Shown here piece by piece: positions 15,356-35,385 of a DNA stretch of 36,069 bases (position 1 is the stretch's first letter; each line of letters begins with the position of its first letter). This DNA comes from Omnitrophica bacterium GWA2_41_15. Its GTDB lineage: Bacteria > Omnitrophota > Gorgyraeia > Gygaellales > Profunditerraquicolaceae. Location of the stretch: positions 2,948 through 39,016 of the forward strand of contig CAKKQB010000038.1 in assembly GCA_919901915.1 (NCBI GenBank), in the 5' to 3' direction. The position numbers were made by a program, and so were the translations under genes. The notes beneath the pieces are model-generated. The model did no database searches. It saw only the letters and a list, made by a program, of their open reading frames with translations, and was not told where the DNA came from.

Positions 15356-15486
15356 CAGACTGTGTCGTAATCCCACTTTTGTGTCATTGCGAGGCCTCCG
15401 AAGGAGGCCGTGGCAATCTTTTTCCAACGAGAAATATTTTTAAGATTACTCGCCTTCGGCTCGTAATGACATTGCGACACAGCCTG
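15356..15486. repeat. MITE-like element B with terminal inverted repeats
   Basis: The ends are CAGACTGTGTCGTAAT (15356-15371) and, in inverse, CAGGCTGTGTCGCAAT (15471-15486), 14 of 16 identical. Inside, gtcattgcgaggcctccgaa at 15382 starts a hairpin unit (aggcctcc/ggaggcc), and an inverted partner ends cggctcgtaatgac. The ends are related to those of the elements at 11652 and 24383. It fills most of the ymdB-GH39 gap. Confidence 0.75.
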
Positions 15487-15660: not shown

Positions 15661-17359
15661 TTCATTCGCTCAAGAACCGGATCTTGATTTCACGTTAGAT
15701 GTTTCCTCGAGTACTGTTCCTTTGCCTAAAATTTTCAGGCCCAACATTGACCTAAGCGGCCGGGGGTTTTATGAGGATTCTTCCTGGCCGCAGACAGTCG
15801 CGTCTAAAGAGACATTAGCTGTCTGGCAAAAAGATATAGGGTTTAGCGGCTTTTATCGTATACAGTATAATCTTTGGGAGATAAATCAGCTTGCCAAAGA
15901 TAAAAACGCGCAAAAGAAATTACTTGATAATTACGATGAAATAATAAAGAACATTACCTTATCCGGTGGCACGGTTGTTTTAAATATATTTGGAACGCCT
16001 GCTGGCTTAGGAAATGTTTTGGATAAAAGGAGCGCGCCTGTAAATTCAAAGGTTTTTAAGGGCTTGATAAAGGATGTAATCAGGGATTTAAGCTGTGTTA
16101 AAAAATATAATATCTGGTATGAAGTTTGGAGCACGCCTGATTTGGATGGCTTTTTTTTGGGCGCGAAACAGGAGTATTTGAATTTATACCGGGAGGTGGC
16201 CAAGGCAGTAATAGAATTAGAGACAGAGACAGGAGTAAGTATTCCTTTGGGCGGCCCGGGTTCGAGTTGGTGGTTTCAAAATTTTGATGGCAATACTATA
16301 GTAACAGCGGAAAAAAGCCTCATTTATGAGCTTGCCAGGTTCTGTTATCAGGAATGTCTGCCTTTGGATTTTGTTAGTTGGCATGGTTACTCCAGTTCCC
16401 CAGAGACAGAAAAAGAGAATACTGTTTATGAAAAGTCCACGGCTGGCCTTATCCGGGAATGGCTTTCTTATTTTCATTTTGACAAAAACACGCCTTTAAT
16501 CGTAAGTGAGTGGAATTTTGATTCAGGCGCTAATATTTTATCCGCGAGAAAGGATGAGTCTTATATCTGCGCGAGTTTTATTCCTGCCCGCCTAAAAAAT
16601 ATGAATGAAGCAGGCATTGATAATCAGCTGTATTTTTGTCTTGAAGATTTTCAAAATGAGAAAGAAAATATAACAAGAAACTTAGGAGTATTTTTTTATG
16701 AACTAATTGCCGGGAAGAGTTCCGCGAAAGCCGTGTACAATGTTTTTAGATTATTAAGCGGCTTAGGAAGCGAGATGTTCGCGGTTAAATTCGACGATCA
16801 ATTTGTAGGGGTGATTGCCACTAAAGAAAAGGATTCCTATAGCGCGCTTTTTTATAACTATATTGATCCGGATATGGCTGTTAATTATTTATCTAAGAAT
16901 ATAGCAAGTTTAAATAGCGCGGAGCGCAAAGCCTTGTTAGATATTATTAATTCAGATAAATTGAAAAAATTATTATCAGGGCAAGCGGATATTAATATTT
17001 TGCGGTTGTCTAATAAAGTGAAGGCCTTGTTAGGTAAGACGCGCCAGTTAAATGAGACAGCCAAGCGTTTTAGCGCTACCGCGAGGAACATAAAATTTGG
17101 TATTAAAAACCTGAATGGGGATTATCTATATCAACGATATACGGTTGACTCTTCTTGCAGTTTTAATTGTGGATTTCTCGCGGCCGAAGAGAAAGAGATT
17201 TCTGCCGGTGAATTTTATCAGGAGGTCTTAACTCTAAAACCTTATTCAGTGCATATGGTTGTGTTAAAGAAGAAGCCAGTTACGCGGATGATCGCGGATG
17301 AGAAAGCGCGGACAGGTTTAGATTCACAATCTCCCCCAAAATGCCTCAAGACCAATTAG
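15536..17359 (+). CDS. Secreted GH39-like glycoside hydrolase with altered acid/base site
   Basis: A 607-residue exported protein with a hydrophobic N-terminal signal (about residues 17-46, possible cleavage near SFAQ). The core follows the GH39 (alpha/beta barrel, clan A) pattern: YEVWSTPDL, a LYREVAKAV helix, IPLGGPGSSWWF, FCYQECLPLDFVSWHGYSS and LIVSEWNFDSG. GH39 beta-xylosidases have WNEPN at the acid/base site. Here it reads WSTPD, with S199 and T200 replacing Asn and Glu. The nucleophile candidate E325 (SEW) is kept. The C-terminal half is unassigned. The ATG at 15536 lies in a repeat, and an alternative ATG at 15575 gives a tighter signal peptide. No Shine-Dalgarno is visible for either. 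The last 19 bases overlap xseA. Confidence 0.65.
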   Translation: MTNNKIQNKFKIQMTNSKIIVLLFGICALLLFCALDFVICHYSFAQEPDLDFTLDVSSSTVPLPKIFRPNIDLSGRGFYEDSSWPQTVASKETLAVWQKDIGFSGFYRIQYNLWEINQLAKDKNAQKKLLDNYDEIIKNITLSGGTVVLNIFGTPAGLGNVLDKRSAPVNSKVFKGLIKDVIRDLSCVKKYNIWYEVWSTPDLDGFFLGAKQEYLNLYREVAKAVIELETETGVSIPLGGPGSSWWFQNFDGNTIVTAEKSLIYELARFCYQECLPLDFVSWHGYSSSPETEKENTVYEKSTAGLIREWLSYFHFDKNTPLIVSEWNFDSGANILSARKDESYICASFIPARLKNMNEAGIDNQLYFCLEDFQNEKENITRNLGVFFYELIAGKSSAKAVYNVFRLLSGLGSEMFAVKFDDQFVGVIATKEKDSYSALFYNYIDPDMAVNYLSKNIASLNSAERKALLDIINSDKLKKLLSGQADINILRLSNKVKALLGKTRQLNETAKRFSATARNIKFGIKNLNGDYLYQRYTVDSSCSFNCGFLAAEEKEISAGEFYQEVLTLKPYSVHMVVLKKKPVTRMIADEKARTGLDSQSPPKCLKTN

Positions 17360-18765
17360 AGTTTTTCCAACAGCACTTAGATTCAACTAAAGGCCGCCAC
17401 GTTTATACCGTATCTGAGATTACCTGCGATATAAAAATAATCCTTAAAAATACTTTTGGTGAAATTTGGGTGGAGGGAGAAGTTTCTAATTTTAAAACTT
17501 ATTCTTCGGGCCATTTTTATTTTTCCTTAAAAGATAAGGATGCCGTTCTTCAAGCAGCTATATTTCACGCGGCCAGCAAGGATATTAAATTTAAGATTGA
17601 GGATGGGTTAAAGATAATTTGTTTTGGTAAAATTGATGTCTACGCGCCGCGTGGAGAGTATAAGCTGATTGTAGAAAAGATTGAGCCTAAAGGGATAGGG
17701 AGCTTGCAATTAGCTTTGGAGCAGCTTAAACAGAAATTAGAAAAGGAGGGGCTTTTTTCGCCGGAACATAAAAGGCCCATACCTTATTTACCGTCAAAGA
17801 TTGGGGTGGTTACTTCTTTGTCGGGCGCGGCTATAAAAGATATATTAAAGGTTTTAGAGCGGCGTTTTAGCGGCGCGCATATTATTATCAGTCCGGCCCA
17901 AGTGCAGGGTGAAAACGCGAAAGAAGAGATTGCGCGGTCTATAAAAGATTTAAACAGATTGAATGAAGGCCTGCCGGCTAAAGAGAGGATCGAAGTAATG
18001 ATTGTGGGTAGAGGCGGTGGAAGCATCGAGGACCTTTGGGCATTTAATGAGGAGATTGTTGCCCGGGCAATATATAATTCCAAGATACCCGTAATTTCAG
18101 CTGTGGGTCATGAACGCGATTGGACAATCGCGGATTTAGTGGCGGACGCGCGCGCTTCTACGCCTTCCGTGGCCGCGGAGATGGTTATGCCGAAGAAAGA
18201 GGATTTGAACAAACAGTTGGAGCGTTTGTTTGGCGGCCTAAAAAGGGCATTTCCTAAAAGAGTTTTGGCGTTTCAGGAATCTATGGATGAATATTTGTAT
18301 CGTTTAAGGATTAACGCGCGGCATTTATTAGAATTAAATAAGGAATGCTTAGACGCGAACATAAAAAAATTAGCAATATTAAATCCGATTATTTTGATTA
18401 AGCAAAATAAGGCAAAGATCGCGGATTTAGCTAATCAAATTCATGTGCGTACGCAGTATTTTATTAAATTAAAATTAGCCGGATTCGATGCTTGTATAGA
18501 AAAACTTTCTTCTTTAAGCCCGTTAGGTATCTTAAGCCGCGGTTACAGTATTACCTTTAAGCTTTCATCTATCGAGTCCGAAATGCCCGGGGAAGTGTTA
18601 GAACCAAACAAGCCGGTAGGCAGTGGTTTGCCTTCCGATAGGCAAAGCCACTGGGCTCAACAAGGAACGATTGTTAAAGACGTGGAATCTCTTCAAGTTG
18701 GTGACAACATAAGAACAAAACTGCGCAAAGGAGAAATCCTAAGCAAGATTACACAGATAAAATAA
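17341..18765 (+). CDS. xseA: Exodeoxyribonuclease VII large subunit
   Basis: The catalytic subunit of exonuclease VII, which degrades single-stranded DNA in both directions during mismatch repair and recombination. 474 residues, versus 456 in E. coli. The N-terminal OB fold begins VYTVSEITCDIK and contains WVEGEVSNFKTYSSGHFYFSLKD. The catalytic domain includes GVVTSLSGAAIKDIL and RGGGSIEDLWAFNEE. A coiled-coil region follows. Residues about 409-441 (starting SSIESEMPGEVLEPN, ending SDRQSHWAQQ) interrupt the usual GYSITFKL...GTIVKDVESLQVGD ending and are encoded by palindromic repeats, which explains the extra length. The start overlaps the GH39-like gene by 19 bases. No xseB is visible downstream. 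Confidence 0.95.
   Translation: MPQDQLEFFQQHLDSTKGRHVYTVSEITCDIKIILKNTFGEIWVEGEVSNFKTYSSGHFYFSLKDKDAVLQAAIFHAASKDIKFKIEDGLKIICFGKIDVYAPRGEYKLIVEKIEPKGIGSLQLALEQLKQKLEKEGLFSPEHKRPIPYLPSKIGVVTSLSGAAIKDILKVLERRFSGAHIIISPAQVQGENAKEEIARSIKDLNRLNEGLPAKERIEVMIVGRGGGSIEDLWAFNEEIVARAIYNSKIPVISAVGHERDWTIADLVADARASTPSVAAEMVMPKKEDLNKQLERLFGGLKRAFPKRVLAFQESMDEYLYRLRINARHLLELNKECLDANIKKLAILNPIILIKQNKAKIADLANQIHVRTQYFIKLKLAGFDACIEKLSSLSPLGILSRGYSITFKLSSIESEMPGEVLEPNKPVGSGLPSDRQSHWAQQGTIVKDVESLQVGDNIRTKLRKGEILSKITQIK
18566..18666. repeat. In-frame composite palindromic insertion in xseA
   Basis: Two repeat words sit together. Positions 18579-18605 (starting cgaaatgcccgg, ending gttagaacc) match 24 of 27 bases with the inverse of 24440-24466 inside intergenic element C. 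Positions 18621-18653 form a hairpin, cagtggtttgcct facing aggcaaagccactg, related to the repeat in dnaA and at 35419. The insertion keeps the reading frame and adds about 33 residues. Outer boundaries are estimated from where XseA similarity resumes. Confidence 0.75.
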
Positions 18766-19015
18766 TTTTTTAACCCTTCCTATTTTTAATTTCTTACGTT
18801 AATCCCCTTATTATTACGAAAGAACCAATTTTTATGTGAGATTTTGCTACTTAATACGTCTATTATATTGGGGCCGGAATGACGAGGGTAAAGTACGTCA
18901 CCCCGACGAAAGTCGGGGTCCAGTGACTCTGGATTCCGGCGTTCGCCGGAATGACGAAGGTTACTGTCGGAATGACGAAGGTGTGACCGAGCGGGTTTAA
19001 AAACGGAGGCCTAAA
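18766..19015. repeat. REP-like palindrome cluster between xseA and comM
   Basis: This 250-base gap has no gene. From about 18872 to 18983 it holds ggaatgacgagg, then ccccgacgaaagtcgggg (hairpin), tccagtgactctgga and ttccggcgttcgccggaa (hairpin), and gtcggaatgacgaagg. The two hairpins are facing variants of one unit, a dispersed repeat type common in many bacteria. From 18766 to 18870 I see only AT-rich sequence. There is no xseB reading frame. Confidence 0.75.
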
Positions 19016-20572
19016 ATGTTGGCAAAGGTTTTTAGTTTTGGTTTGTTAGGTATTGAAGCGTATCCTATTGAAATTGAAGTGGATGTGTCAAGCGGATTAC
19101 CCGCGGTAACATTGGTTGGTTTGGCCAATACTGCTATAAAGGAAAGTAGGGAAAGGGTTAAATCCGCGATTAAGAATTCAGGTTTTAAGTGGCCGGCAGA
19201 AAGAATTACTATTAGTCTTGCTCCTTCTGATATCAAAAAAGAGGGCACAGGGTTTGATTTGGCCATTGCCTTAGGGGTTCTTTCCGCTACAGAACAGTTG
19301 GACAAAGAAAGATTAAAGGATTATTTTATTTTGGGTGAATTGTCTTTAGATGGAGCGCTAAGGCCTATTCATGGAATTTTACCAATCAGCATGGCTATAG
19401 TTAAAAATAAAATTAGGAATTTTATTATTCCGATTCAGAACGCGAAGGAAGCGGCAATTGTTTCAGGTATTTGTGTCTGGCCGTTAAAGACCTTAAGGGA
19501 GGTTGTAGAGTTTTTACACAATCCAGATATCTTAAAGCCTTTTAAGTTGGACATGGAAAGTATGCTTAAAGAAAATTCGCATTATTATGTGGATTTTTCA
19601 GAAGTCAAGGGGCAGTATTTTGCCAAGCGCGCTTTAGAGGTTGCGGTTAGCGGAGGCCATAATATTGCTATGATTGGCCCTCCTGGAAGCGGAAAAACTA
19701 TGCTTGCCAAAAGAATTCATACAATTATGCCGGATTTAACAATAGAGGAAGCGCTGGAAATAACCAAGATTCATTCAATAGCAGGAACTCTTCCGTTTAA
19801 AGAAGGGATAGTTGCTACAAGGCCGTTTCGCAGCCCGCACCATACCACATCAGACGTGGCTTTGGTTGGCGGCGGCTCAATACCTCAACCCGGAGAGATA
19901 AGTCTCGCGCATCAGGGCGTTTTATTTTTAGATGAACTACCGCAATTTAGCCGTAATTGTTTAGAGGCGCTTAGACAGCCTTTAGAAGATGGCTCTATCC
20001 GTGTCTGTCGCGTAAACAGGTCTTTTACCTTTCCCGCTTCCTTTATGTTTGTCTGCGCGATGAACCCTTGTCCGTGTGGTTATTTTACTGACTCGCGTAA
20101 AGCCTGCCGATGTAATACTACTAAGATTGCTAATTATATGGGTAAGATTTCCGGGCCATTATTAGACAGGATTGATATCCATATTGAGCTTCCCGCGGTT
20201 AAATATAATGAGCTTACTGATACAAAAGATGCTGAGCCGTCAATAGTAATCAAGGCGCGCGTAGAAAAAGCGCGGTTAATTCAAAGAAAGCGTTTTTCCG
20301 TCGAAGGCGGATTCGCTTGCGGCGGAAAATCAAGGCTTATATTTTACAACGCGCAGATGGATTCAAGGTTAATTAAAAAATACTGCAATTTAAACGGTGA
20401 AGCTAAAAAATTGCTTAAGATGGCTATAACGGAGTTAGGATTGTCAGCCAGGGCATATGATAAAATCTTAAAAATATCAAGGACTATCGTGGATTTGGCT
20501 GGAAGCGAAGTTATTCTTGCTGAGCATATTTCCGAAGCGATACAATATCGTTCCTTGGATAAAAATTTTTAA
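19016..20572 (+). CDS. comM: ComM/YifB-family AAA+ ATPase (Mg-chelatase-like)
   Basis: A 518-residue protein of the ComM family, a hexameric helicase that promotes branch migration during natural transformation in Gram-negative bacteria. An N-terminal ChlI-like domain (ATLVGLANTAIKESRERVKSA-type) spans about 1-170. The AAA+ core has Walker A GPPGSGKT (221-228) and Walker B VLFLDELPQF, followed by CAMNPCPCGYF and a Cys-rich turn SRKACRC. The C-terminal LSARAYDKILKISRTIVDL is the family ending. Residues about 427-438 (FSVEGGFACGGK) are an in-frame hairpin insertion. GGAGG lies 7 bases before the ATG. Full transformation capability cannot be judged from this gene alone. Confidence 0.94.
   Translation: MLAKVFSFGLLGIEAYPIEIEVDVSSGLPAVTLVGLANTAIKESRERVKSAIKNSGFKWPAERITISLAPSDIKKEGTGFDLAIALGVLSATEQLDKERLKDYFILGELSLDGALRPIHGILPISMAIVKNKIRNFIIPIQNAKEAAIVSGICVWPLKTLREVVEFLHNPDILKPFKLDMESMLKENSHYYVDFSEVKGQYFAKRALEVAVSGGHNIAMIGPPGSGKTMLAKRIHTIMPDLTIEEALEITKIHSIAGTLPFKEGIVATRPFRSPHHTTSDVALVGGGSIPQPGEISLAHQGVLFLDELPQFSRNCLEALRQPLEDGSIRVCRVNRSFTFPASFMFVCAMNPCPCGYFTDSRKACRCNTTKIANYMGKISGPLLDRIDIHIELPAVKYNELTDTKDAEPSIVIKARVEKARLIQRKRFSVEGGFACGGKSRLIFYNAQMDSRLIKKYCNLNGEAKKLLKMAITELGLSARAYDKILKISRTIVDLAGSEVILAEHISEAIQYRSLDKNF
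20294..20329. repeat. In-frame 36-base hairpin insertion in comM
   Basis: The arm ttttccgtcgaaggcg, the loop gatt and the arm cgcttgcggcggaaaa match in 13 of 16 pairs. The 36 bases encode 12 residues placed where ComM relatives pass directly from the RxRF motif to NAQM. It is not obviously the same family as the dnaA/xseA repeat. Confidence 0.65.
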
Positions 20573-22954: not shown

Positions 22955-24370
22955 TTAGATTGTGCATACGTTTCTCGCTTCACCCACTACAAATAACGAG
23001 CCTGTAATCAAAATTAAGTCTTTGGGGTTGGCTTTTTGTTGGGCTAGTTTTACTGCTTCTTTTATATTTTTTGTTTTAATAATTTGCTTTTCGGACTCAG
23101 GTTTCTGGTTTCTTATAATTGACTCAATAAAATTCGGTTCGGTTGCCCGCGGATTGTTGGCCTTGGTTAAGATAATTTCGTCCGTTGTATCATATATTTC
23201 ATTGCATATTCCTTTTATATCTTTATCGTTGGAGATGCCCAAGACAAGAATTAGTTTCTTGTATCGGAAATTTTCTCTTACTGTTTCTTTTAGTATCTTC
23301 ATTGAGGCAACATTCTGCGCGCCGTCTAAAACTACCAAAGGATTTTTGGAAATAGTCTCACACCTGCCCGGCCAGAGGGTATTGTAAAGGCCTTTTCTTA
23401 TGGAATCAATGCTGATATTTATATCGTAATCGCGTAAGGCCTCGACAACGCCTATTGCCACTGATGCGTTTAGCAATTGATGTCCGCCAAGCAGTTTTAT
23501 TTTTAAATTTGGATAATTACTAAGCAGGCCCTTAATCCTAAACTGGCAACTGGTAATTGGCAGCTGACAGCTGACGGCTGACAGCTGACGGCTACACAAT
23601 ATATCTTTACCCACTTCGTATAATTTCGCGCCTACCTTTTTGCATTTATTTTGAATAACCTCCCGTGCTTCTTTTTCTTGCGGCGCGGTAATTACGATTG
23701 GCTGACAGCTGACAGCTGACAGCTGACAGCTTTTTTTTATTATTCCCGCTTTCTCCGTCGCGATTTTTCTTAAAGTATTGCCCAATTTGCGCGTATGTTC
23801 ATAACTTATAGGAGTCATAGCCGCGATTAAAGGCTCAACCACGTTGGTAGCATCTAATCTGCCGCCCAAACCTGTTTCTAAAACCGCGAAATCAACTTTT
23901 TGCTCTTTAAAATAAATAAAGGCCAGCGCGGTATAAACTTCAAAAAAACTAAGCGGACCGTATTTTGAGATACTATTGAATTTTTCTATTTCGGGCTTTA
24001 GCCGCTGTATTAAATCACAAAGCCCATTTTTAGAAATCATCCCTTCGAATTCAGATCGTATAGCGTTTAGCGTATAGCGCTTAGAAGATAATATGCGAAT
24101 TCTTTCTCTAAAGTCTGAAAGATGCGGCGAAGTGTATAAACCCACTTTATATCCTGCTTCTTTTAATATGTAAGCAATAAACGCGCAGGTTGAGCCTTTG
24201 CCTTTTGTTCCGGCGATATGGATACATTTTAGTGTATCGTGAGGGTTGCCCATTGTCTGTAAGAAATTTTTCATCCGCTCTAATTTTAGGGATTCTTTAT
24301 AGGGCCAGACAGAGATTTTTTCGTAGTTAATAAAGCTTTCCAGGTATTGAATAGTTTCTGGGTAGGTCAT
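22955..24370 (-). CDS. folC: Folylpolyglutamate synthase / dihydrofolate synthase carrying repeat insertions
   Basis: Adds glutamate to dihydropteroate or folates. 471 residues, longer than the usual 420-440. The ATP-binding loop GTKGKGSTCAFIA and the TSPHLSDFRERIRI, FAVLETGLGGRLDATNVV and EKAGIIK motifs are present. Three period-7 DNA arrays lie in frame: around residues 96-105 (SSKRYTLNAI), 214-224 (SCQLSAVSCQ) and 259-277 (RQLSAVSCQ plus LPITSCQ). These sit in loop regions and account for the extra length. The start is the ATG at 24370. Codons upstream of it lie in a mobile-like element. The C-terminal ligase domain looks intact (VLDGAQNVASM), so the protein is probably functional. Confidence 0.93.
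   Translation of the reverse strand: MTYPETIQYLESFINYEKISVWPYKESLKLERMKNFLQTMGNPHDTLKCIHIAGTKGKGSTCAFIAYILKEAGYKVGLYTSPHLSDFRERIRILSSKRYTLNAIRSEFEGMISKNGLCDLIQRLKPEIEKFNSISKYGPLSFFEVYTALAFIYFKEQKVDFAVLETGLGGRLDATNVVEPLIAAMTPISYEHTRKLGNTLRKIATEKAGIIKKSCQLSAVSCQPIVITAPQEKEAREVIQNKCKKVGAKLYEVGKDILCSRQLSAVSCQLPITSCQFRIKGLLSNYPNLKIKLLGGHQLLNASVAIGVVEALRDYDINISIDSIRKGLYNTLWPGRCETISKNPLVVLDGAQNVASMKILKETVRENFRYKKLILVLGISNDKDIKGICNEIYDTTDEIILTKANNPRATEPNFIESIIRNQKPESEKQIIKTKNIKEAVKLAQQKANPKDLILITGSLFVVGEARNVCTI
23541..23596. repeat. Degenerate heptamer array within folC (eight units)
   Basis: Eight 7-base units in phase, aactggc, aactggt, aattggc, agctgac, agctgac, ggctgac, agctgac and ggctaca. Because three units equal seven codons, the encoded peptide repeats every seven residues (QLSAVSC). 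Confidence 0.9.
23700..23730. repeat. Heptamer array within folC (four units plus three bases)
   Basis: Units ggctgac, agctgac, agctgac, agctgac, then agc. It uses the same word as the array 104 bases away, in the same orientation, and again encodes QLSAVSCQ. Confidence 0.92.
24054..24084. repeat. Heptamer array of tagcgta type within folC
   Basis: Units tagcgtt, tagcgta and tagcgct with flanking partial units. It is the same word as the rny-ymdB palindrome at 14464. It encodes a basic stretch in the N-terminal domain of FolC. Confidence 0.85.
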
Positions 24371-24382
24371 TGTTCCATTAAT

Positions 24383-24563
24383 GGGGCTGTTGCGAAATAC
24401 ATTAAAATCGTCATACCGGCGAAAGGTCGAGCCCAGTTGGGCTCTGACACTTCCTCGGGCATTTCGCCCTCGGTCGCCGGTATCCATAAGCCTATTGAAA
24501 TCAAAGAGTTCTGGATTCCGGCTTTCGCCGGAATGACGAAAAATGGCATTTCGCAATAGTCCC
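24383..24563. repeat. MITE-like element C with a nested palindrome
   Basis: The ends are GGGGCTGTTGCGAAATAC (24383-24400) and, in inverse, GGGACTATTGCGAAATGCC (24545-24563). Within it are two facing units of the cgtcattccggcgaaagccgg type. The left unit is split: ataccggcgaaagg and tcgccggtatcc flank 24427-24473, which carries the same repeat word as xseA 18579-18605. The element occupies nearly the whole folC-purH gap and ends 13 bases from the folC start codon. Confidence 0.8.
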
Positions 24564-33612: not shown

Positions 33613-35274
<1,662 letters not shown>

Positions 35275-35340
35275 ACGCGAATTACCACGCTTGCCTGCCA
35301 GCAGGCAGGAATAAAAGTCAAATTATCGCGAATAAAAATC

Positions 35341-35373
35341 AAAAAGGGCGAAGATAAAATCTTCGCCCTTTTT
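35341..35373 (+). terminator. Rho-independent terminator of groES-groEL
   Basis: Perfect 15-base arms aaaaagggcgaagat / atcttcgcccttttt with an aaa loop. It is A-flanked and T-flanked, so it could act in both directions. A smaller palindrome, tgcctgccagcaggca, lies before it at about 35293-35308. Confidence 0.95.
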
Positions 35374-35385
35374 GATTTGTGATTA

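Follow-up and report, generated by a model that had tools for sequence, protein, structure and literature searches.

To our knowledge, in-frame palindromes in protein-coding genes are known mainly from Rickettsiales and from the REP elements of some genomes. The Rickettsia palindromic elements (RPE) have lengths of 105-146 bp, according to the portion of the source used here (PMC2229807). Intragenic REPs with GTAG or CGTC tags are described as small hairpins, present singly or as dimers, of which some lie in DNA repair and tRNA synthetase genes, and one case lies at about the same site in two species (same limitation to part of the text; PMC3733652).

In this report, we analyze an apparent insertion in the comM gene of Omnitrophica bacterium GWA2_41_15. 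The whole stretch of DNA that was analyzed, 36,069 nucleotides, is called the window. G numbers denote genomes (G000 is the genome of the window) and L numbers denote loci. We are highly confident that comM carries a decayed copy of a palindromic element, small and dispersed, with the 30-bp structure and mode of insertion proposed below.

An in-frame insert in comM

The palindrome occupies positions 20294-20329 of the window (TTTTCCGTCGAAGGCGGATTCGCTTGCGGCGGAAAA) and lies in frame within the comM/yifB ORF at 19016-20572, which has Mg_chelatase, ChlI and Mg_chelatase_C domains. An earlier note on this DNA had placed a palindrome there, and both the TIGR00368 match of the ORF and the comparison of folds with shuffled sequences confirm it. 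The RNA fold has a predicted energy of -20.0 kcal/mol (z -3.5; 2 of 200 shuffles were equally good), and the DNA fold one of -11.9 (z -3.3; 1 of 200 shuffles). The note described a near-perfect hairpin with 16-base arms; a hairpin it is, but "near-perfect" is generous for 16-nt arms in which, counted by eye, there are 13 Watson-Crick pairs, 2 G.T pairs and 1 mismatch. The relevant features of the window are as follows.

19016..20572, + strand: comM (yifB), Mg-chelatase-like AAA ATPase of 518 aa, host of the insert (NCBIfam TIGR00368, YifB/ComM, E 6.7e-193)
20294..20296, + strand: TTT (Phe427), left side of the target site, found in empty comM genes (TTT^AAG in L007, L008 and L028; TTC^AAA in L009)
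20297..20311, + strand: unit 1, TCCGTC-GAA-GGCGGA, 6-bp stem with one G.T pair and a GAA loop (from the sequence and the family pattern)
20312..20326, + strand: unit 2, TTCGCT-TGC-GGCGGA, 6-bp stem with two G.T pairs and a TGC loop (from the sequence and the family pattern)
20297..20326, + strand: whole 30-bp insert, peptide SVEGGFACGG (family: SAxGGSAxGG), absent from 25 of 31 readable comM genes
20327..20329, + strand: AAA (Lys438), right side of the target site (from the comparison with empty comM sites)
23266..23267, - strand: empty site in the folC gene of the window (ENF^RYKKLILVLG), filled with the 30-bp element at the same codon boundary in L201, L215, L277, L184, L052 and L271

The extent of the insert was established by comparison with other comM genes. 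Fifty of 58 genomes gave a match, and 30 loci were fetched (one being the window's own), to which two loci from the scan of GTDB genomes were added. The site is readable in 31 of these 32 genes, with L010 and L108 read from alignments; L026 ends before it. Of these 31, 25 are without the insert. The 30-bp form is present in four (the window, G005, G039 and L124) and a 15-bp form in two (G033 and G009). The G005 copy is strongly decayed and was recognized mainly by its peptide, and both 15-bp forms are also decayed. The clearest pair is L028, which reads CGT TTT AAG, and L025, which reads CGT TTT, 30 bp and AAG. TTY^AAR is present in 11 of the 23 empty sites that were read at base level, and the others depart from it in one codon or in both.

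The comparison of filled and empty genes therefore defines the insert as 20297-20326, with TTT and AAA as its old neighbors. This insertion of fixed length, observed directly, comprises ten codons and not the 12 that the earlier note had counted. The insert is also missing from the solved ComM structure 8rxd, in whose alignment 14 residues of the window protein stand opposite a gap, and its residues are not conserved across ComM. We infer that the position is a surface loop. A structure model built from three sequences has a mean pLDDT of 48, and of about 29-41 at residues 401-450; in this low-confidence model a helix ends at residue 427, and no conclusion is based on it. The copy in ComM itself is probably without a function.

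Genes with the insert are not clustered in a comM tree made by a quick method. Six changes are needed on this tree, of which the starred branches force four, and 16 of its 27 inner branches are weak. A parallel comparison of dapA comprised 34 rows, with 6 filled sites (five genomes, one represented twice), 20 readable empty sites and 8 sites unreadable by the search pattern. The dapA tree needs four changes, and its starred branches are compatible with a single origin. In both trees, gains are indistinguishable from losses. Recurrent insertion is nonetheless favored for comM, because the L124 gene, only 48% identical to that of the window, carries the element at the same boundary. The boundary is filled in scattered lineages.

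A dispersed element family

The core of the family consists of TCCGCC-NNN-GGCGGA occurring twice (30 bp). At up to three mismatches, 46 of 117 genomes of the order hold this core. At up to two mismatches it occurs in 48 of 146 phylum genomes, a set that overlaps the order set, with a maximum of 49 copies per genome. The reversed-pattern control gave no matches in either scan. Among 30 genomes that had been preselected by a 23-base pattern, 29 hold the full core, and one has 81 copies. Exact single 15-bp units occur in 41 of 58 relatives, with a reversed control that was non-zero in 4 of the 58. The presence of the element is patchy among close relatives and within genus g13.

Within G000, a search for the exact 36-mer of comM found no second copy within three mismatches. 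The family pattern recovered the comM insert (contig positions 23244-23273, G000:C38), and the family consensus revealed two further dimers, at C12:24020 and C13:45196. There are also five perfect 15-bp units, two of them inside these two dimers, with a reversed control of zero in this genome. The genome search that the earlier note had suggested was thus negative for the literal sequence and positive for the family, and related copies exist both in G000 and in other genomes.

An exact 23-base scan of GTDB genomes yielded at least 119 stretches. By record title, the matches listed include Omnitrophota, about fifteen groups of Patescibacteria, Planctomycetota, Bacteroidota, Auribacterota and Kiritimatiellota, as well as Cloacimonadota, Margulisiibacteriota, Ignavibacteriota, Elusimicrobiota, Lentisphaerota, Nanobdellota and others. 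This list of phyla may hold binning errors, because most of the record titles say MAG. The element together with a flanking peptide is common to L062 (in G114, of the same family as G000) and the Omnitrophota record L141. In IMG/VR, one contig has an exact match to the 30-bp pattern, and no ComM relatives were found in viral contigs. Plasmid carriage was rejected: two Bradyrhizobium records share only a 20-base stretch (E 0.3), which we take as chance. In E. coli genomes, BLAST with the low-complexity filter on gave no match to the element.

These data bear on the possibility that the insert is not a mobile element at all, but a lineage-specific expansion of a ComM loop that is palindromic by chance. 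The stretch is indeed variable across comM genes, and the 36-mer is unique in G000 within three mismatches, which speaks for such an expansion. However, G039, L124 and, in decayed form, G005 carry members of the same family at this codon boundary, and the family resides inside many unrelated genes, with reversed controls of zero in the order and phylum scans. Since the order-wide family scan and the dapA comparison of empty and filled sites already contradict loop expansion, we consider it exceedingly improbable. The more general proposal of the earlier note, that insertion of palindromes into coding sequence is a general process, is strongly supported by copies in many genomes and genes. Its suggestion that the process is general "here" holds for the process, but the element family is not special to G000.

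Other repeats in the window

The earlier note had regarded the comM palindrome as a third kind in the window. To call it a further kind is fair, since the window holds another repeat family. Its member at 24438-24465 (GAAATGCCCGAGGAAGTGYCAGAGCCCA; G000:C38:27385-27412, - strand) belongs to 24 copies in G000, one of which can read EMPEEVPEPNWA, and none was found in 57 relatives at three mismatches. The ORF at 17341-18765, which by eye looks like xseA, has an apparent insert at about 18565-18663 that reads SSIESEMPGEVLEPNKPVGSGLPSDRQSHWAQQ; it contains a hairpin (18610-18653) as well as a stretch similar to EMPEEVPEPN. In the folC gene (22955-24556, - strand) there are two apparent QLSAVSCQ-like inserts with the appearance of a period-7 CAGCTGT repeat; runs similar to these lie beside some 30-bp element copies in G007.

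Palindromes of the types ATTCCGGCG..CGCCGGAAT and TCATTGCGAGG..CGTGGCAATCT are located between long ORFs, at 18904-18956 and 15373-15416. A perfect 20-bp inverted repeat with a 3-nt loop at 35336-35378, after the ORF at 33625-35274, is perhaps a terminator-like hairpin. Elsewhere, copies at L226 and L227 (G043) and at L223 (G000:C13) share a longer context, CCGATT-element-..GGCTGAA, outside long frames, which suggests a longer noncoding relative of the element.

Host genes and reading frame

Host genes with NCBIfam matches above the curated cut-off encode AtpD, AspS, MurC, DprA, DNA polymerase I (polA), DapA, GlnA and FolC; for phosphoglycerate kinase and a partial DnaK, the match falls below it. 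A connection with transformation exists for ComM and DprA. This link, and the repetition of the element across many genomes, might point to a regulatory or DNA-uptake signal under selection rather than a selfish insert. However, the host genes are functionally unrelated, and the element is patchily distributed even among close relatives and within genus g13. We therefore find a selected signal very unlikely.

The reading frame was assessed in a sample of 82 distinct copies (loci L192-L281), with 60 stretches among them. Ten of these stretches were picked by a pattern that includes TTTT, so their flanks are not unselected. Fifty-nine of the 82 copies reside in ORFs of 150 or more codons: 49 in phase 0, 9 in phase 2 and 1 in phase 1 (p 5e-15, if copies were independent). 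With the ten TTTT-picked stretches removed, the counts for phases 0, 2 and 1 are 42, 9 and 1 of 52. When each gene family is counted once, phase 0 is found in 33 of 41 families, and in a set from many phyla, selected for TTTT before the element, in 59 of 67. The frame bias is thus a direct observation.

In phase 0 the peptide is SAxGGSAxGG, and the other frames are Pro-rich or Arg-rich. Only a small part of the bias is due to stop codons, because only some loops create one: the commonest forms, with GAA loops, are free of stops in six frames, and a stop arises in phase 2 from a GTA loop and in phase 0 from a TGA loop. The bias presumably reflects selection against Pro-rich and Arg-rich peptides. 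Copies outside phase 0 do exist in apparently real genes; for example, one G000 copy reads FPPEADQPLAEAG.

The same bias is relevant to whether the peptide reaches the protein. Ribosomes might skip the hairpin by translational bypassing, which is known for coding palindromes in the mitochondria of the yeast Magnusiomyces capitatus, as mentioned in the part of PMC6649704 consulted, and the peptide would then be missing. A skipped insert, however, should show no frame bias because its frame would be irrelevant, yet 33 of 41 families are in phase 0. Bypassing is accordingly disfavored, and we rate it extremely unlikely. The frame bias suggests that the insert is translated and that the host protein would remain active.

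Target site and flanks

Among 49 copies, the codon to the left of the element is TTT in 45% (background 3.2%), and the codon to the right is AAA or AAG in 69% (background 8.9%). Without the ten TTTT-picked stretches, TTT is found on the left in 16 of 42 copies and AAA or AAG on the right in 28 of 42, and with one copy per gene family, TTY is found in 15 of 32 and AAR in 19 of 32. Insertion at TTY^AAR is therefore favored, a preference that is directly observed. Also, two pyrimidines precede the element, reading inward on either strand, in 131 of 148 flanks. As inverted repeats, the two flanks of a copy match each other no better than shuffled partners, taken from different copies, do, and they give no support to a symmetric target.

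A target-site duplication, as is typical of MITEs, was sought among the 82 copies. Direct flank repeats with lengths of 2-6 bp occur about as often as expected by chance, and repeats of 7 bp are present in four copies (0.05 expected), several of them in or beside period-7 runs. A general target-site duplication is absent, again by direct observation.

Two small hairpins rather than one

Covariation was assessed in 223 copies with up to four mismatches, including those selected by exact pattern. Base pairs within units have 47 double changes, 43 of which remain Watson-Crick; compensated stems include TCAGCC/GGCTGA, CCCGCC/GGCGGG and TTCGCC/GGCGAA. For the single long hairpin, there are 5 double changes, of which 3 are compensated, and we rejected it as the conserved structure. 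Because the compensated changes fall within units, the units rather than the long stem are conserved, and this covariation in the small stems is observed directly. For the perfect consensus, the best fold is one long hairpin; for a compensated copy, it is two. The covariation could alternatively arise from repair templated on the other arm.

In 87 of 94 copies, the loop starts with a purine in unit 1 and with a pyrimidine in unit 2. When read on the purine strand, GNA accounts for 79 of 116 loops of coding phase-0 copies and for 33 of 42 loops of copies without a 100-codon frame; because GNA prevails in the latter also, the preference is not only a codon effect. GNA is the commonest element loop in the order of the window. 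It is not a rule for the whole family, because AGA, TGA and TAA loops are common in other classes and phyla. In the part of one report that we used, DNA mini-hairpins with G-C stems and a GNA loop are described as extraordinarily stable and nuclease resistant (PMC4686876). The element resembles them in its G-C stem and GNA loop, although what that text describes are short synthetic DNAs and parts of aptamers, unlike a mobile element.

A model for movement

In the model that we propose, the element consists of two tandem 15-bp units, each with a 6-bp stem and a 3-nt loop, the second loop being in the reverse-complement sense, such that each DNA strand begins with the same kind of mini-hairpin. 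It inserts between existing bases, preferably at TTY^AAR, without general target-site duplication, as is shown by empty and filled sites, which were resolved to the base in comM, dapA and folC. The host gene is kept open because 30 bp amount to ten codons and GAA-loop forms are stop-free in any frame, and a phase-0 insert supplies the glycine-rich linker SAxGGSAxGG. Insertions that fall in an unfavorable frame or in a structured part of a protein are most likely removed by selection.

Because the units evolve as DNA hairpins (compensated stems, and GNA loops also outside long frames in the order of the window), the moving form would be single-stranded DNA. Movement most likely involves a trans-acting enzyme that recognizes the mini-hairpins or, alternatively, a host replication or repair route. 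The leading candidate for a mobilizer is an enzyme of the Y1/HUH type, for example, a REP-associated transposase, to which we nevertheless assign somewhat less than an even chance. Y1_Tnp proteins (PF01797, a count that pools RAYTs with other Y1_Tnp proteins) are present in 97 of 117 genomes: 40 of 46 element-positive and 57 of 71 element-negative genomes (p 0.45, no association). None was found in G037, which is 94% complete and has the element in seven places. These two results led us to reject Y1_Tnp as a required partner, and they disfavor a Y1 transposase as the sole agent.

A more specific reading is that of a REPtron, in which a dedicated RAYT transposase would move the element as a REP dimer with a GTAG or CGTC tag. 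Its size, dimeric layout and location in repair and core genes resemble the intragenic REP dimers in the consulted part of PMC3733652, and Y1_Tnp proteins are widespread in the order, at the 97 of 117 genomes given above. However, CGTC is found within 8 bp of 2 of 82 copies and GTAG of 1 of 82, and the occurrence of Y1_Tnp is not associated with that of the element. Moreover, tagged REPs are mostly intergenic, as far as that text describes them (PMC3733652), whereas 59 of the 82 copies lie in ORFs of 150 or more codons. The GTAG/CGTC identity was rejected on the tag counts, with no more than 3 of the 82 copies having a tag within 8 bp, and we regard a RAYT-moved REP dimer as unlikely.

In its fullest form, our preferred reading is of a very small, possibly the smallest known, coding mobile element: a 15-bp mini-hairpin, mostly an inverted dimer with a single-stranded moving form, that spreads within and between phyla of uncultured bacteria and archaea without a transposon of its own, at TTY^AAR, and that has repeatedly given natural Gly-Ser linkers to core enzymes. 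For this complete statement, we see the case for and against as evenly balanced.

Significance and comparison with known systems

With its presence in about one third of the sampled phylum genomes and in many Patescibacteria records, a 30-bp element would quite generally supply conserved proteins with short insertions, and it would account for unusual glycine-rich loops in metagenome-predicted proteins. The copies constitute many natural insertion experiments, from which the choice of target, the selection of frames and the loss of copies can be measured. Because presence varies within one genus, the movement of palindromes becomes testable by comparison. In the literature covered, which included few subscription papers and no preprints, we found no report of the 30-bp element.

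Several described systems are similar in part; the comparisons below apply to the portions of the cited reports that were used. Coding palindromes across distant clades are also characteristic of the palindromic amphipathic repeat coding elements (PARCEL; PMC2996958). In that account, PARCELs repeat a 25-residue motif in tandem within ORFs that have no assigned function, whereas the element is mostly a single 10-residue insert in core enzymes. The coding palindromes of nematomorph mitochondria are likewise inverted repeats within functional genes, but they are described as perfect repeats of up to 284 bp with no shared 30-bp element (PMC6649704).

RPEs and their Wolbachia counterparts are closer, in that they are also palindromic, found both in frame in conserved genes and in intergenic regions, and leave the frame open (PMC2229807, PMC10969869). 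Our element shares the trait of a palindromic repeat that is in frame in unrelated conserved genes. It differs from RPEs in its 30-bp length, its two hairpins and its occurrence in many phyla, including Nanobdellota, a distinction made from the published description rather than from RPE sequences. Intragenic REP dimers and groups encode 20-30 residues and the element 10; REPs are mostly intergenic and carry GTAG or CGTC tags, and the element is mostly in ORFs and untagged (PMC3733652). The element works like RPEs and intragenic REP dimers, yet it is assigned to neither, because its length and host range differ from those of RPEs and the REP tag is missing.
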